Shown here: positions 52,503 to 60,221 of the stretch, piece after piece
Numbering within the stretch: the first letter of the stretch is position 1
Layout: each line of letters opens with the position of its first letter
Source of the DNA: Bacteroidota bacterium
GTDB taxonomy: Bacteria; Bacteroidota; Bacteroidia; Bacteroidales; P3
Reading direction: 5' to 3'
DNA: 64,000 bases
Assembly (NCBI GenBank): GCA_017860275.1
Contig: JAFNAQ010000010.1
Location: 1 to 64,000, forward strand
Position numbers and translations under genes: made by a program
The notes under the pieces: model-generated
Told to the model about the DNA's origin: nothing
Databases searched by the model: none
Seen by the model: the letters and a program-made list of their open reading frames with translations, nothing else

Positions 52503-53297
52503 TCATTTCCTAGTACATACAACTTGATCCTTATAGCAAAGATTAACAACACTATAATTATCCCAGCCAATTACCGAAAATGCCTCCTTATATAAATAGT
52601 TTAACTTATTAAACTTTTCCTCCAAATTATTAATATCCCCAACCTTTATTGTATAGTCTCCAATCTTAGGGAAAAACTCAAACTCAGATTGATTAGGTAT
52701 ATATATTTGATCAATCTGATAAGCTAATATTGTATCATTGTATAGCTTTAGTGCCAAATAATAAAGAGAGGATGCTGTTTTCTCAACACCTTTCTTTGAA
52801 TCAATATCAATTGTGTCCAATCTCCCTTTTGATAATAATGCAGTATTTATAATAATATCTCCACTAGCAATAACAACATCAGAAAGAGCATCGTCCTTAA
52901 TATTTATTATCTTCCCAACCCTGTCTATATAAAACTGCATACCATTTCTAGAGTATAGCCTAAGAATAGGCACAGCTTGTGTTATAGTTATCTTTACCTT
53001 TCCAGTGAAATTAAGATATACTTCAGCATCCTCAATATAAGGTTGAGATTTTAAAAACTTCTCCACCTCATCTGCATCAACATCCTTTATATTCTTTTGA
53101 GACAAATCTCCAAATCTTGAGATCAAATCTAGTCTAATTGATTCAGAAGATATTATTGTATCCGAATTACCATAGCTAACACTAACAACAACCTTATCGA
53201 TGGGTTGTCTACCAACAAAAATATTAGCACCTATTATTAGAATAACCAATAATATTATGGCAATTAATGAAACAAATATTCTTCTACGTTTTTTCAT
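52503..53297 (-). CDS. ftsQ: Cell division protein FtsQ
   Basis: A 264-residue bitopic membrane protein of the divisome. A basic N-terminus (MKKRRRIF) is followed by one membrane helix (VSLIAIILLVILIIGANIFV) and a periplasmic POTRA-like region (VVVSVSYGNSDTIISSESIR ... FLKSQPYIEDAEVYLNFTGK) and beta domain. The ATG overlaps the last base of the murC stop. Called FtsQ from position and domain pattern. Confidence 0.85.
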   Translation of the reverse strand: MKKRRRIFVSLIAIILLVILIIGANIFVGRQPIDKVVVSVSYGNSDTIISSESIRLDLISRFGDLSQKNIKDVDADEVEKFLKSQPYIEDAEVYLNFTGKVKITITQAVPILRLYSRNGMQFYIDRVGKIINIKDDALSDVVIASGDIIINTALLSKGRLDTIDIDSKKGVEKTASSLYYLALKLYNDTILAYQIDQIYIPNQSEFEFFPKIGDYTIKVGDINNLEEKFNKLNYLYKEAFSVIGWDNYSVVNLCYKDQVVCTRK

Positions 53298-54652
53298 TAC
53301 TTTGAAAATCTCTCCTCAATTGGTTTAACTAACTTATCAATATCTCCTGCTCCCAATGTCAAAAGAACTTCTGGGTAAAGAGCCTCCAATAAATCTAATA
53401 ATGTATCCTCAGTACTATAATACTTATCCATCTTATCTATCTTGTGAAGTAACATCTTTGAGCTAACTCCTGGCAATGGTTTCTCCCTTGCAGGATAAAT
53501 ATCTATTAGCACAACCTCATCCAAAAGCTCTAAGGCTCTAGCAAAATCATCGGCGAAATCCTTAGTTCTCGAAAAAAGATGCGGCTGAAAAACTCCTGTT
53601 ATCTTCTTATTTGGATAAAGATCTCTCACAGATTCTATACAAGAGCGCAGCTCTTGTGGATGATGGGCGTAATCATCTATATAAACAAAATCATCCCTTT
53701 TTATCCTATAATCAAACCTCCTCTTAACTCCAGAGAAAGAAGAAATAGCCGTTCTTAACTCATCCTCATTTACCCCACAGTTCCATGCAATAGCCATAGC
53801 CAAAACTGAGTTTTCAATATTATGCAAGCCAGGGTAATTTAGGCAAATATCATAAATAACCTTCTCTGGAGTATGGAAATCGAAATAATAAGCTCCCTTA
53901 TAATTTCTAATATTCCAAGCATAGTATTCTGCCTCGTAGCCCGAAATTGTATATATCAATGTCTCAATACCCTCATTAACTTCAATATCAAGACCCTTCT
54001 TTAAGAATAGCTTTTCCTTAGAGTCATTGGTTTTAATAGGTATCTTGTTAGCAAACTCAACAAAGGTATTCTTCATTTCTTCGTGTGAGCCATAAATATC
54101 TAAATGATCTGCATCAACAGAAGTTATTGCAGCATAATATGGAGATAATTGGAGGAAAGAACGATCAAACTCATCTGCCTCAACCACCACAAATTCACTA
54201 TCCTTATTAATTACAAAATTAGATCCAAAATCCTTAGAAACACCACCAAGAAATGCGCTACAACCAATTGAGCTATTATGCAATAGATGAGCAACCATTG
54301 TTGTTACCGTAGTCTTTCCATGAGTTCCAGCAATTGCAATACATTTCTTCCCCATTGTCAACTCTCCCAACACTTGAGAGCGTTTCTTCATTGGAAAATT
54401 ATTATCGATAAAATAATTTAGCAGGACAGAATCCTTAGGGATAGCTGGAGTAAAGACAACTAAATCTATATCCTTAGGTAGATAAGAAATATCATCCATA
54501 TAAGAAATCTCAATACCTTCATTCTCTAGTTGCAATGTAAGCTCTGTCTTTGTTAAGTCATATCCACAAACCTTACATCCCATACCATTGAAGTATCTTG
54601 CAATAGCACTCATTCCAATGCCACCAATACCTAAAAAATAATACGTCTTCAT
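53297..54652 (-). CDS. murC: UDP-N-acetylmuramate--L-alanine ligase
   Basis: A 451-residue cytosolic ligase that adds the first amino acid of the peptidoglycan stem. The N-terminal UDP-binding loop is GIGGIGMSAIARYF (8-21), the ATP loop is GTHGKTTVTTM, and the C-terminal part has DDYAHHPQELRSCIES and FQPHLFSRT, all typical of MurC. It overlaps murG by 4 bp (ATGA) and ftsQ by 1 bp. Confidence 0.97.
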   Translation of the reverse strand: MKTYYFLGIGGIGMSAIARYFNGMGCKVCGYDLTKTELTLQLENEGIEISYMDDISYLPKDIDLVVFTPAIPKDSVLLNYFIDNNFPMKKRSQVLGELTMGKKCIAIAGTHGKTTVTTMVAHLLHNSSIGCSAFLGGVSKDFGSNFVINKDSEFVVVEADEFDRSFLQLSPYYAAITSVDADHLDIYGSHEEMKNTFVEFANKIPIKTNDSKEKLFLKKGLDIEVNEGIETLIYTISGYEAEYYAWNIRNYKGAYYFDFHTPEKVIYDICLNYPGLHNIENSVLAMAIAWNCGVNEDELRTAISSFSGVKRRFDYRIKRDDFVYIDDYAHHPQELRSCIESVRDLYPNKKITGVFQPHLFSRTKDFADDFARALELLDEVVLIDIYPAREKPLPGVSSKMLLHKIDKMDKYYSTEDTLLDLLEALYPEVLLTLGAGDIDKLVKPIEERFSK

Positions 54653-55740
54653 TTTACTAAACCCTCAACAATTTTTAAAATTCTTTCATCTGCATCTTTT
54701 ATCCCTAAGCTAAGAATATTCTCGCTCATACGCCTTTGTTTATCTTCATCCTTAATAAGCATATCAAGTTGAGCCAAAAGAGTATTTCTAGAATCAACAT
54801 CCTTAACCAAAATAGCTGCATCCTTATCAACCAAAGCCATAGCATTCTTGGTTTGATGATCCTCAGCAACATTAGGACTAGGAATTAATATTGTAGGTTT
54901 TCCAACAATACAAAGCTCACTTATAGCAATAGCTCCTGCTCTTGATATTATTATATCAGCAACAGAATAAGCCAAATCCATTTCATAGATAAACTCAAAA
55001 ACATTAATATTCTTACTATTAATCGTAGCGCTCTGCTCTTTAGCCTTTTCGAAATATCCCTTACCAGTTTGCCAAATCAACTGAATATCATTTTCCACAA
55101 AATAGTTTAGCCCTGTGGTAATACTCTCATTAATCGTTCTTGCTCCAAGACTTCCACCCACCACAAGAACAGTTCTTTTATTTGGATCCAAGCTAAAATG
55201 TTTAATAGCATCCTCTCTTTTATTTGTAAGAGAGCTTATCATCTGACGAATAGGATTGCCAGTAAACTCTATCTTAGAGGCATTAAACCAACGAGTCATA
55301 TTATCATAAGCCACGCAAATCTTATCAACCTTACTTGCTAACATCTTATTGGTAATCCCAGGATAGGAATTTTGTTCCTGAATTAGAGTTGGCACTTTGA
55401 GTCTTGCAGCAGCTTCAAGTGTTGGACCAGAGGCAAAGCCTCCAACACCAATTACTATATCTGGTTTAAATCTTTTAATAATTCTACGAGCCTTGAGGGT
55501 ACTACAAATAACCTTTAGAGGAAAAAGAAAATTCTTCCAAGTGAAGCGTCTTTGAAGACCACTAATCCATAAACCTTCAATCTTATAACCCGCTTGAGGC
55601 ACCTTCTCCATCTCCATTCTACCCTTAGCCCCAATAAATAATATTTCTGCATCGGCATATTTAGCCTTAATTGCATTAGCAATTGCAACGGCAGGGAATA
55701 TATGTCCCCCTGTTCCACCTCCACTAATTATTGCTCTCAT
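54649..55740 (-). CDS. murG: UDP-GlcNAc transferase MurG
   Basis: A 363-residue GT-B enzyme that makes lipid II from lipid I on the inner membrane face. The N-terminal loop GGGTGGHIFPAVAIA, the second glycine-rich motif GGSLGARTINES and the donor-site region DIIISRAGAIAISELCIVGK ... AEDHQTKNA are present. The gene lies 30 bp after ftsW and overlaps murC by 4 bp. Confidence 0.97.
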   Translation of the reverse strand: MRAIISGGGTGGHIFPAVAIANAIKAKYADAEILFIGAKGRMEMEKVPQAGYKIEGLWISGLQRRFTWKNFLFPLKVICSTLKARRIIKRFKPDIVIGVGGFASGPTLEAAARLKVPTLIQEQNSYPGITNKMLASKVDKICVAYDNMTRWFNASKIEFTGNPIRQMISSLTNKREDAIKHFSLDPNKRTVLVVGGSLGARTINESITTGLNYFVENDIQLIWQTGKGYFEKAKEQSATINSKNINVFEFIYEMDLAYSVADIIISRAGAIAISELCIVGKPTILIPSPNVAEDHQTKNAMALVDKDAAILVKDVDSRNTLLAQLDMLIKDEDKQRRMSENILSLGIKDADERILKIVEGLVK

Positions 55741-55770: not shown

Positions 55771-56988
55771 CTAATTACTCCCCTTCTCAGAATCTTCAAC
55801 ACTTTCTTTCATTTCACCCTCTTCTTGAGATTCCACATCTTGTTCTAGTTGTTGCTTGGCAAGGTCTTTGTTTGCCTCAGCACTAATACTTAGCACTATT
55901 CCCAAGGCAACACAACTAAATAAGAAAGAAGTACCTCCATAACTAATAAATGGCAGAGTTTGCCCCGTTACAGGAGTTAGACTCGTGGCAACAAACATAT
56001 TAATCATAGCTTGAAAAACAATCATAACTATCAATCCAATAGAACAAAAAGCTCCAAAATATCCCTTTGAACGTCTTGCAATAATAATTCCTCTATAAAG
56101 AAGAATCATATATAAAGCCATTAATAGAACTCCAAAAATCATACCTCCCTCTTCAATAATAATGGCAAAAATAAAGTCATTATGACTCTCACTAAGGAAT
56201 CTTGCCTGCTCTGTATTTCCTAAAAACTTACCAAAGAAACCTCCAGTAGATATAGCCATACGAGCAAGATTAGGCTGAGTGATAGCATCCAAATCAACAT
56301 AATACCAATCCGAGATTCTATTAGACCAAGTCATAAAACGATCAATCAAATCAGGATTAATCGTATTGACAATAAAGACTATAAATAAGAATCCAAATAG
56401 TATAATAGGCAGAATGCTTAAATACTTAAGACTCACCCTTCCAATAAACATCATTATAAAACATACAGCAAAAAGAATTGCAGCAGTCGAGAAGTTCTCT
56501 GGGAAGATAAGTAGACAAACAATAATAATTGGAATTATCAATTTCTTAAATACCTCCTTAGACTTTATATTGTCTTGATATAAAGCCAAAAGACGAGCAA
56601 TATACACAATAAGAATTATCTTAACAATCTCTGAGGGTTGGAACTGCCCAACAAAAGGAATTGCTATCCACCTTGCAGCTGCCTTACCACCTATAGTACC
56701 AATCAATAGTGTAACAGTTAATAAGGCAATAGAAACATATAGTCCAATCTTAGAGAATCTTGAGAAGAATTTATATTTAATATTATGAGTAAGATACAAG
56801 ACAACAGTACCAAGAAGCAAAAGGAATATATGCTTACCAAACATAGAGGTAGGGCTCTTATGATTGTCAAAGACTTCCTTTCCTAAGGTGCTATAAACCT
56901 CTAAAATAGATATAGCTACGAATAATAGAAATATCATCCATATAACCTTATCTCCCTTGAGCTTTATTTTAAAGTTTCTTATATCCAT
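55771..56988 (-). CDS. ftsW: Peptidoglycan polymerase FtsW (SEDS family)
   Basis: A 405-residue membrane protein with about 10 helices. SEDS marks include GKAAARWIAIPFVGQFQPSE, the large outer loop with SESHNDFIFAIIIEEGGMIF (catalytic Asp region) and TPVTGQTLPFISYGGTSFLF near the C-terminus. It polymerises septal glycan together with the FtsI encoded in the same cluster. The tail is acidic (QDVESQEEGEMKESVEDSEK). It lies 15 bp after the MurD-like remnant. Confidence 0.96.
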   Translation of the reverse strand: MDIRNFKIKLKGDKVIWMIFLLFVAISILEVYSTLGKEVFDNHKSPTSMFGKHIFLLLLGTVVLYLTHNIKYKFFSRFSKIGLYVSIALLTVTLLIGTIGGKAAARWIAIPFVGQFQPSEIVKIILIVYIARLLALYQDNIKSKEVFKKLIIPIIIVCLLIFPENFSTAAILFAVCFIMMFIGRVSLKYLSILPIILFGFLFIVFIVNTINPDLIDRFMTWSNRISDWYYVDLDAITQPNLARMAISTGGFFGKFLGNTEQARFLSESHNDFIFAIIIEEGGMIFGVLLMALYMILLYRGIIIARRSKGYFGAFCSIGLIVMIVFQAMINMFVATSLTPVTGQTLPFISYGGTSFLFSCVALGIVLSISAEANKDLAKQQLEQDVESQEEGEMKESVEDSEKGSN

Positions 56989-57003: not shown

Positions 57004-57540
57004 CTATAATGTATTTACAGCGTGACGAAAGCCCTCACCCTTAATGTCAATTTCATCCTCCATACCATTGGCAGGAGAATACATAACAACATCTTCGCTT
57101 TCTGCAATTGCATTAGCAAGCATAACAGCCTCATTAATATTATTAACCTCGAAGATATTATGAATTAACCCTTCGAAAGTATTTTTAAGATTTAGTCTTT
57201 CCTTACCAAAGCAAATCATTGCACCCACCTTCTCTCTAGCTATTGGGATAAGACAAGTGAAATTATTGTCCTTGCTATCAACATCTGCAATCCAAACAAT
57301 TTTATTTGTTACCGATTCCATTGAAAACCAAGTAGCATTAGGATTGATTGAACGAGCGTCATTAACAAATGAAACATCCTTAATCCTTGCCACAAGTTCT
57401 CTTTTATGTTCTTGTTCAACATTATTCCCAAAACAATTTAATAAGTTTTGTCTCTTAGCTAGAATATCGTTATAATTTCTGCCAGCAAGAGAAGAATATA
57501 CCTTTTCTCTACCTTGATTTGCTAATAATTCTAAAGTCAT
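57004..57540 (-). CDS. MurD-like protein reduced to the C-terminal ligase domain
   Basis: A 178-residue protein in the normal place of murD. From about residue 57 it follows MurD domain 3: FVNDARSINPNATWFSMESV (usual form FVNDSKATNxxATWxAL), KIVWIADVDSKDNNFTCLIP, EKVGAMICFGKER, INEAVMLANAIAESEDVVMY and SPAN. The first 55 residues match at most the end of the central domain. The UDP-binding domain and the ATP loop (GTNGKT type), about 270 residues, are absent. The gene starts 1 bp after the mraY stop, so nothing lies upstream, and the frame is intact. It cannot be a full ligase alone; it may be a regulatory or scaffold remnant, or work with a central domain encoded elsewhere. Confidence 0.8.
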   Translation of the reverse strand: MTLELLANQGREKVYSSLAGRNYNDILAKRQNLLNCFGNNVEQEHKRELVARIKDVSFVNDARSINPNATWFSMESVTNKIVWIADVDSKDNNFTCLIPIAREKVGAMICFGKERLNLKNTFEGLIHNIFEVNNINEAVMLANAIAESEDVVMYSPANGMEDEIDIKGEGFRHAVNTL

Positions 57541-57541
57541 A

Positions 57542-58795
57542 CTATCTAAGTTTTAATGTTATTACAGTTACTACAGCTAAGACTATTGAGATAATCATAA
57601 AACGCTGAACAATTTTTGGTTCCGCAAAACCCTTCTTCTGATAATGGTGATGAAGTGGAGCCATTAAGAATATCCTTCTACCCTCACCATATTTTCTCTT
57701 TGTCAATTTAAAATAGAATACCTGCATTACAACAGAAAGATTCTCCATAATAAATACCCCACAAAGAATAGGTATTAGTAATTCTTTTCTAATAAGTACA
57801 GCAAACACTGCTATAATACCTCCAATTGCCAAAGATCCCGTATCTCCCATAAATATCTGAGCAGGGTAAGTATTATACCATAAGAAACCTACTGTTGCCC
57901 CAACAAAGGCACTGATAAATATTGTAAGCTCTCCAGAATTTGGAATATACATTATATCTAAATAGTTGGCGAATATAATATTTCCCGACACCCATGCCAA
58001 GATAGCAAGAGTGGCACCAATTACTGCCGAAGTACCCGTGGCGAGCCCATCTATACCATCTGTGAGATTAGCACCATTGGAAATAGCTGTTACAATAAAT
58101 ATTACAATAGGAATAAAAATAATCCAAGCCCAATCTCTAAAGTCATCTCCTATCCATTTCACAAGATAAGCATAGTCGAACTCATTATTCTTCACAAAAG
58201 GAATAGTAGTCTTAGTAGACTGTTCTGCTTGAGCTGAAAATACACTCTTAGCCTTATCATAAGTCCTATCGTTTTGTAGGTTATGAGACATTGCATATCT
58301 TTCAACATCTTGTTTTTCCTTAATAGAAATATCTGGATGGAAATACATCATTGCTCCAACAACAATACCTAATGTTACTTGCCCCACAACCTTGAACTTT
58401 CCAGAAAGTCCTTTTTTATCATGCTTAAATACCTTAATATAATCGTCTAAGAAACCTATCAAACCAAGCCAAATGGTAGAGAATATCATTATTATTACAT
58501 AGATATTATCTAGCTTAGCAAACAAAAGAGTAGGGATAAGAATAGCACCAAGAATAATTAATCCTCCCATTGTAGGAGTACCCTCTTTTTCTTTTTGACC
58601 ATTCAAACCCAAGTCTCTAACACTCTCTCCTATCTGTTTTCTGCGTAAATAATCAATAATCCTTTTACCATAAACTATGCTTATAATAAGCGATGTGATT
58701 ACCGCAGCAGCAGCTCTAAAAGAAATATATTGGAAAACACCTGCTCCAGGTATTCCAAATTCTGTATGTAACCAAGTAAATAAATAGTACAACAT
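57542..58795 (-). CDS. mraY: Phospho-MurNAc-pentapeptide transferase MraY
   Basis: A 417-residue integral membrane enzyme that makes lipid [31 protein letters not shown] (first DD motif), [33 protein letters not shown] and the HHH loop ([11 protein letters not shown]) are all present. An insert of about 60 residues between helices (around 165-225) makes it longer than proteobacterial MraY, as usual in this phylum. It is 4 bp after murE. Confidence 0.97.
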
Positions 58796-58799
58796 ATGC

Positions 58800-60221
58800 T
58801 TAATATTTTAAAGTTTCTTCTTTGTCGTCGAAATGATGTCTTACACCATTAATCTCTTGATACTTCTCATGCCCCTTACCAGCCACAAGGATAATATCTT
58901 CCTTTTGAGCAATTTGGCAAGCAAGCTTAATAGCATCATGACGATTAGTTATAGTAAAGGTCTTCTTCTGAGTTATTATATCGAGTCCCTCTTGCATTTG
59001 ACGAATAATTTCCTCTGGGTCTTCCGTTCTTGGATTATCACTAGTAAGGATAACATTGTCTGAGTTTTCGGCAGCAATCTTAGCCATAATAGGACGTTTT
59101 GTTCTGTCTCTATCTCCACCACAACCAACAACGGTAATAAGTTTGCCCAATCCTTCTCTTATAGTATTAATAGTATTTATCACATTCAATAAGGCATCAG
59201 GAGTATGAGCATAATCGATAATAGCCTTAGCACCAGAGGATATTGTAACACAATCGAACCTACCCTCAGCAGATTCTAACTCACTAATACCTCTTAGGGC
59301 CTCCTCTTTCTTTATTCCACAAAGAATTGCAGTAGAATAAATAGCAAGAATATTATAAGCATTAAACTTTCCAACAAGTCTTGTCCAAAGCTCAATACCA
59401 TCAATATTCAATAATATTCCCTCGAAACTATTCTCTAAAATAATTGCATGAAAGTCGGCTAAGGTCTGAAGGCTATAGCTATATTTCTTTGCCTTAGTAT
59501 TCTGAAGCATAATATCTCCATTCTTATCATCGATATTTGTTAGAGCAAAGGAAGTCTTTGGAAGAAAGTCGAAGAATTGTTTCTTAGCCTTGATGTATTC
59601 TGAAAAAGTCTTATGAAAATCTAAATGGTCATGGGTGATATTTGAGAATATACCTCCATAGAACTCAACTCCTTCAATTCTATGTTGAACAATAGAATGA
59701 GAGCTAACCTCCATAAATACAAATTCGCAACCTGCCTCAACCATTTCAAGAAATAACTTATTCAAAGAAATTGCATCTGGAGTAGTATGAGTTGCCTTAA
59801 CCTCAAGGTTATTTATCTTATTTACTATTGTAGAAACGAGTCCTGTCTTAAACCCAAGGTTCATAAAAAGTCTATGAAGAAGAGTAACCGTTGTCGTCTT
59901 ACCATTAGTACCCGTTATCCCAATAATCTTTAGCTTTGAAGATGGGTTATCATAATATTTAGAAGCAATAATACCTAAAGCCTTTGAGGAATCTTCAACC
60001 TTAATAAAGGTTACATCATAATCCTCTTGAGGAATATTTTCACAAACAATAAACTTTGCACCCTGTTCAATAGCCATAGGTATAAACTTATGACCATCTA
60101 CCAAGGTACCAGTTTGAGCAACAAATAGAAAACCTTCTGCAACCTCTCTTGAGTCGAAGCAAATACCCTTAACTAAGTCAAGTTTATTAAATAATTCATT
60201 TAGTTCTATATATTTTGCCAT
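58800..60221 (-). CDS. murE: UDP-MurNAc-tripeptide synthetase MurE (DAP-adding)
   Basis: A 473-residue cytosolic ligase that adds the third stem residue. The ATP loop is [33 protein letters not shown] lies in the centre and [15 protein letters not shown] in the C-terminal part. The DNPR motif ([12 protein letters not shown]) marks meso-diaminopimelate as the added residue. [20 protein letters not shown] ends the protein. It is 1 bp after ftsI. Confidence 0.97.

Follow-up and report, generated by a model that had tools for sequence, protein, structure and literature searches.

A murD gene reduced to its C-terminal domain in the dcw cluster of Bacteroidales, as a putative non-catalytic partner of the Mur enzymes

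MurD features in textbooks as an essential enzyme and is a target for antibacterials. In the 64,000-nucleotide stretch of Bacteroidota DNA analysed here (the window), which comes from an uncultured member of the Bacteroidales, the dcw cluster forms a regular run, murE-mraY-stump-ftsW-murG-murC, in which the stump is a short gene retaining only the C-terminal part of MurD (Table 1). The locus raises two questions: how D-Glu is added to the peptidoglycan precursor in this organism, and why a piece of the enzyme has been kept. A sequence-only reading of the window had described an intact gene of 178 codons that lies between mraY and ftsW, 1 bp from the former and 15 bp from the latter, with no space for a frameshifted N-terminal part. 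The open reading frame coordinates bear this description out: the mraY stop lies 1 base before the stump ATG, and 15 bases separate the stump from ftsW. No match to MurD domains 1-2 was found between mraY and the stump, which rules out a frameshifted N-terminal part.

Table 1. Features of the dcw cluster in the window
Feature	Position	Strand	Description
murC	53297..54652	-	complete three-domain ligase; TIGR01082, 373 bits
murG	54649..55740	-	TIGR01133, 306.7 bits; candidate partner of the stump
ftsW	55771..56988	-	downstream neighbour of the stump; TIGR02614, 255.7 bits, below the 337.5 cut-off
murD stump	57004..57540	-	intact ORF of 178 aa; C-terminal domain of MurD preceded by the end of its central domain
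mraY	57542..58795	-	upstream neighbour of the stump; TIGR00445, 325.5 bits, above cut-off
murE	58800..60221	-	complete three-domain ligase; TIGR01085, 486.3 bits

The stump matched a single NCBIfam model, TIGR01087 (murD), over model positions 288-418 of 441 (E = 8.3e-21), with a score of 74.6 bits that lies below the curated cut-off of 211.95 bits. A Pfam search at 1e-3 matched no model. With the C-terminal domain of E. coli MurD taken as residues 300-437, as delimited in the available part of the source (PMC4816537), the stump comprises domain 3 preceded by about 40-45 residues from the end of the central domain. The earlier description of the product as MurD domain 3 only was right about the domain 3 match and has to be widened by these terminal central-domain residues. 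The UDP-binding domain is missing altogether and the ATP-binding domain almost entirely, and with no P-loop the stump does not have the three-domain architecture of a MurD ligase, P-loop ATP-binding domain included. Judged from its sequence, the remaining domain cannot act as such a ligase.

Structure prediction for the stump alone, a check proposed in the sequence-only reading, gave a confident MurD domain 3 fold. The AlphaFold2 model, made with an alignment of 29 short forms, had a mean pLDDT of 82; residues 1-40 reached only 47-54, and 10-residue blocks from residue 41 onward averaged 80-96. In a Foldseek search of the PDB with this model, ranks 1-33 were all MurD (best 7ti7, E = 8e-13), and the predicted structure has the domain 3 fold. 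At ranks 36 and 42 stood 8ras_Q and 8qma_O, two chains from the plastid RNA polymerase complex that structurally resemble the Mur C-terminal domain.

Two ways out had been suggested for D-Glu addition, a full murD elsewhere in the genome or a different chemistry, and both hold together. Outside the window, a 903-aa open reading frame of the same genome (G000:C91; L001:1492-4203) joins a MurL-type epimerase to a full MurD-like ligase. The C half (G000:C91:34227-35507), which matches the murD model over residues 475-901 with 297.7 bits, is the sole murD match above cut-off in the genome; the full-length murD that had been sought is a MurD2-type ligase fused to MurL. The N half matches the MurL model NF041275 over residues 18-455 (model positions 8-443 of 447, E = 1.6e-78) and is, on this alignment, homologous over its full length to characterised MurL. 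Its score of 264.2 bits is below the Xanthomonadales equivalog cut-off of 700, which was reached by no Bacteroidales genome searched; 0/14 control genomes matched MurL. No glutamate racemase was found in the genome of the window (completeness 98.9) with TIGR00067 at 1e-8 or PF01177 at 1e-4.

The E. coli MurD positions D182, K319 and K348 are E, I and R in 26/26 MurD2 copies examined and are retained as D, K and K in 66/66 full-length dcw MurDs. Equivalents of K115, E157, H183, R302 and D317 are present in all 26 MurD2 copies, including that of the window's genome, and the ligase motifs are complete. At the Ala414 and Leu416 sites, the MurD2 of the window's genome has P and Y, and the 26 copies have S (16), A (8) or P (2) followed by Y (26); the Leu416 site does not discriminate here because the dcw MurD of Bacteroidales already has F there. 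According to the available parts of the sources, the MurD2 of Xanthomonas oryzae has Glu, Arg, Pro and Phe at the four distinguishing sites, and the substitution K319T makes E. coli MurD accept L-Glu (PMC8788868). The system found here resembles the X. oryzae MurD2+MurL route, as those parts describe it, in its D182E, K348R ligase, its MurL homologue and the absence of a detected MurI, and differs from it in that MurL and MurD2 form one polypeptide in the window's genome (PMC8788868, PMC5808125). Pro433 and Phe435 of the X. oryzae MurD2 are not general in Bacteroidales (P in 2/26, Tyr in 26/26).

The MurD2-type residues, the fused MurL and the lack of a detected glutamate racemase together indicate that D-Glu is probably made on the precursor, with MurD2 adding L-Glu and MurL inverting it. 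An alternative D-Glu route in this genome is very likely on these sequence features, and the MurL-MurD2 fusion probably took over D-Glu addition from the dcw MurD.

Mur domains are modular, and this modularity would permit a split ligase, in which the stump works in trans with the ATP-binding and UDP-binding domains of another Mur protein. The other MurD-profile matches in the window's genome are MurC, MurE, MurC/Mpl-like, MurF and MurF-Alr proteins, with no lone central-domain or lone domain 1-2 ligase among them, so no split ligase is apparent. Moreover, MurD2 brings a domain 3 of its own, and the stump shows erosion of the GxHN, KATN and DKG residues; we regard a split ligase as highly improbable. 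The genome also encodes a second MurC/Mpl-like ligase and two MurF-type genes, one of them fused to an alanine racemase gene (L003:1183-2562, L004:1225-2520 and L007:82-2634).

A family survey of 41 genomes (the window's own and 40 relatives) showed the stump as a short ORF in 25/25 genomes of the window's family, 11 of them from its genus, flanked by mraY and ftsW wherever the contig reaches (G017 is cut at a contig end). The synteny comparison proposed earlier therefore gave the same slot in all 25, and the possibility raised with it, of relatives that have a full-length MurD here and no short form, did not materialise in the family, where the stump is fixed. In other families full-length MurD occupies this spot, and the short form recurs in some. 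The gap in BLAST matches between mraY and domain 3 is 5-181 bp at short loci and 789-991 bp at full loci, with nothing between. Many of the genomes are drafts of many contigs, and the MurL relatives are mostly metagenome-assembled, which would suit an assembly or binning artefact; the same architecture with matching flanks in 50 separately assembled genomes, and the absence of intermediate gap lengths, reduce that explanation to a negligible one. Presence in 25/25 family genomes and in 50 short forms overall rules out an assembly artefact or a private lesion.

Within this survey MurL was found in 30/41 genomes and MurI in 10/41; the ten MurI genomes are all the MurL-negative ones except G039, in which neither was found. 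In 15/25 genomes of the family, MurL and MurD2 lie in a single open frame. They are also fused in G130, from another family, in a 949-aa frame. The mraY of G015 is only 45% identical to that of the window, unlike that of its kin, groups oddly in the MraY+FtsW tree and was possibly transferred. A second partial MurD-like gene in G003 (C7) proved to be the MurD2 copy cut by a contig end.

Across an even sample of 198 Bacteroidales genomes (G000, G013, G024 and G025-G219), MurL was found in 67, MurI in 120, both in none and neither in 11, and a third of the sampled genomes seem to use the alternative D-Glu route. The 67 MurL-positive genomes divide into 27 with a stump, 36 with a full-length dcw MurD (in three of these the call is based on domain 1-2 pieces where the contig ends) and four that were not judged. 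Two of the four have no mraY in the assembly (G044, G152); in the others, G101 and G204 from one family, neither a MurD piece nor ftsW lies beside mraY, and the dcw cluster looks broken up (L209, L210). In G204, a MurL piece is encoded on the opposite strand, ~0.6 kb downstream of mraY.

The stump thus occurs in 27/63 assessable MurL-positive genomes and, with the exception of the MurL-negative G039, in 0/80 MurL-negative genomes examined (Fisher p = 7.5e-11, relatedness ignored). These 80 controls were drawn from the 130 MurL-negative genomes besides G039 and have frames of at least 436 aa or, in G076, domain 1-2 at a contig end. A tree-aware independent-pairs test of MurL against the short state yielded six pairs and was not significant, six being too few to decide. 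Short frames in G076, G118 and G130 were rejected as stumps, since they stop at contig ends and domain 1-2 pieces are present; in G183, too, domain 1-2 is present where the contig ends. The locus searches were baited with domain 3, and loci with domain 1-2 only are visible solely through mraY, by which none was seen apart from G183.

G039, the sole MurL-negative genome with a stump among those examined (L089:2049-2558), gave no match to MurL, MurI, PF01177 or full-length MurD at the thresholds used. Two genomes of family f76, G099 and G202 (99% complete), have a full-length dcw MurD and neither MurL nor MurI; a PF01177 gene is present in G099 and none in G202. In a phylum sample of 198 genomes, surveyed for MurD frames only, 195 had a match, with frames of at least 443 aa among the matches listed.

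The 36/63 assessable MurL-positive genomes that keep a full-length dcw MurD (for example G037, L099) all lack MurI. Ligase motifs were intact in 33/33 of these MurDs checked. Relaxation of the ligase part was considered and not found: the ratio of domain 1-2 to domain 3 distances is 1.37 in MurL-positive genomes vs 1.44 in MurL-negative ones, with a value as large in 190 of 500 permutations. D-Glu supply was likewise rejected as the reason for keeping a full MurD, a gene of the Asp/Glu racemase superfamily being present in 4/27 short and 8/36 full MurL-positive genomes (Fisher p = 0.53). A full-length, unrelaxed MurD in MurL-positive genomes is a puzzle that the replacement story alone does not explain.

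In a tree of 67 domain-3 sequences, the MurD2 copies form one clade (100/100) and 27/29 short forms another (100/96); the stump therefore descends from the dcw MurD and not from MurD2. The short gene was never away from the mraY-ftsW slot in the loci examined, and five families (f27, f35, f50, f74 and f94) hold both full and short states. A careful MraY+FtsW tree with 64 rows gave 13 full/short changes (at least 9 forced, bootstrap range 12-14) and a quick one with 116 rows gave 17 (12 forced by well-supported branches), counts that do not tell truncation from regain and that gene transfer or tree error could inflate. The domain-3 tree, with 7 changes and only 2 forced by well-supported branches, is poorly resolved, which leaves the flanking genes as the main basis for the number of origins. 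The quick tree left out six genus near-duplicates (G002, G003, G004, G005, G009 and G010); absent from the careful tree were 15 family rows (including G015, because of its odd mraY), rows with at least 40% gaps and all MurL-negative rows but six. Whether a rival D-Glu route freed the ligase part for deletion many times in parallel, with domain 3 kept, is a close call that we put slightly on the doubtful side.

The stumps mostly start at a single internal Met: 48/50 short forms have a Met no more than four columns from their shared start. Full-length MurDs have a Met at the stump-start column in 32/35 MurL-positive and 30/34 MurL-negative genomes, and because a Met is usually present there, the full-length gene may already yield the short protein by internal initiation, which is speculation.

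The dN/dS comparison among relatives that the sequence-only reading had proposed gave NG86 values of 0.07-0.13 for the stump in 8/10 close pairs, with two pairs saturated; the three closest pairs share branches and have 6-8 replacement changes each. The corresponding values are 0.03-0.09 for mraY in pairs of the same set and 0.03-0.17 for domain 3 of full-length MurD (5 pairs). The stump is under purifying selection. Together with the same slot in 25/25 family genomes, this supports the view that the gene is maintained and cleanly shortened rather than decaying.

Selection has preserved some columns of the short forms and not others. Fold-core columns are kept (D331, corresponding to E. coli D317, and I354 in 50/50; W341 and W353 in 49/50), and ligase columns are eroded (K333, corresponding to K319, in 20/50; T335 in 22/50; K360, corresponding to K348, in 10/50). 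In E. coli terms, the window stump has R at K319, I at T321, E-K replacing the H-N of GxHN and a deletion in the SPACASFD loop, and a K aligns at K348 amid an eroded motif; the set of substrate and ATP residues of domain 3 (K319, K348, T321, GxHN) is not found in it. Only one column, A321, appears newly constrained in the short forms. Most conserved columns belong to the fold core, and no binding surface is therefore indicated by the alignment. On this alignment the fold is kept, the ligase chemistry is lost, and there is no obvious new site in the stump.

Erosion of the ligase residues, the length of some branches and the two MurL-positive genomes of one family without a MurD piece beside mraY (G101, G204) are what a relic being slowly lost, and kept by chance alone, would show. 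Purifying selection, an open frame in all 25 sampled family genomes and domain-3-only forms in many families make such slow decay improbable. We also consider it improbable that the gene is retained in cis, its DNA or translation coupling mraY-ftsW expression or holding an internal promoter, with the protein a by-product. Tight packing, with 1 and 15 bases to the neighbours, and confinement to this slot in the loci examined would fit; coupling, however, is achievable by any short ORF, and the strong coding constraint (dN/dS about 0.1), the invariant amino acids present across 29 divergent short forms and the confident predicted fold argue against it. The stump is in all likelihood a selected, non-catalytic protein.

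Our preferred explanation, held with a little more confidence than doubt, is that the stump is a murD leftover kept as a non-catalytic scaffold or regulator of Mur enzymes. The dcw murD would have been reduced to the stump after a second D-Glu route took over, and the product would be a small structural or regulatory subunit without catalytic activity. The stump would keep a surface by which MurD docks in the cytoplasmic Mur assembly, with MurG, MraY, other Mur ligases or the incoming MurD2-MurL as candidate partners, and may help to hold or tune precursor synthesis at the membrane. For the scaffolding or regulatory role taken by itself, with its putative partner, we see the chances as evenly balanced. 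The earlier suggestion of a new job for this piece stands in that the gene is maintained and selected; the job itself we infer. MurG binds MurD, MurE and MurF in Thermotoga, according to the available part of the source (PMC6420597), and such binding of MurD-type proteins makes a docking role of the stump plausible. MigC, a MurD partner in Acinetobacter, binds residues 53-103, outside domain 3, in the part of the account available (PMC12208494). Evidence against the scaffold reading comes from G039, which has a stump and neither MurL nor MurI, and from the weak rate correlations of the stump given below. The stump may be dispensable, because the MurL-positive G101 and G204 have no MurD piece beside mraY; its retention in many relatives suggests a second use for the leftover domain.

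A narrower form of this explanation, which we consider unlikely, makes the stump a specific subunit for MurD2 or the MurL-MurD2 fusion, binding it and either activating it or recruiting it to the dcw-encoded complex. The near confinement of the stump to MurL-positive genomes would fit, as would the rates of stump and MurD2, which correlate weakly (rho 0.39, p = 0.024 uncorrected) and not significantly after correction for the 10 pairs tested. The rate correlation of the stump with MurL is 0.00; moreover, 36/63 MurL-positive genomes have a full-length dcw MurD instead, so MurD2-MurL needs no free stump, and G039 has a stump without a detected MurL. Rates were correlated over 18 genomes with all five genes (G015 and G029 left out); the stump gave 0.25 with MraY and 0.19 with FtsW, and the positive control, MurL with MurD2, gave 0.53. 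In tree length the stump (11.2) comes close to MurD2 (11.6) and FtsW (14.2), which fits a selected protein.

With the MurD ligase the stump shares descent, dcw cluster slot and domain 3 fold; unlike it, the stump has no UDP-binding domain or P-loop, its ligase residues are eroded and its score is below cut-off. Pseudoenzymes in general have lost catalytic motifs and kept fold and selection. The stump resembles them in all of this and differs in lacking two of three domains and in that the same reduction recurs in several lineages. Closer to the proposed role are the MurG-scaffolded Mur complexes of Bordetella and Thermotoga, in which MurD-type proteins bind MurG; the Mur proteins described in the available part of that source are complete enzymes, however, with no domain-3-only subunit among them (PMC6420597). 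Searches of the open-access literature turned up no description of a dcw-cluster MurD consisting of domain 3 only, nor of MurL in Bacteroidales, including its fused MurL-MurD2 form. The MurD2-MurL route itself is already known; the available parts of the sources place it in Gamma- and Alphaproteobacteria and actinobacteria, and mention MurL of low similarity in cyanobacteria, a fungus and an amoeba as well (PMC8788868, PMC5808125).

The present survey extends that route to 67/198 sampled Bacteroidales genomes, where it also occurs as a single polypeptide. MurD ligase activity appears to have been replaced in these Bacteroidales while one domain of the enzyme was kept. Such parallel reduction of MurD to one and the same domain amounts to a natural experiment, in which catalysis by MurD is set apart from any other task that the protein may have. 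It also opens the long-debated complex of Mur enzymes to direct tests with a protein of 178 residues.
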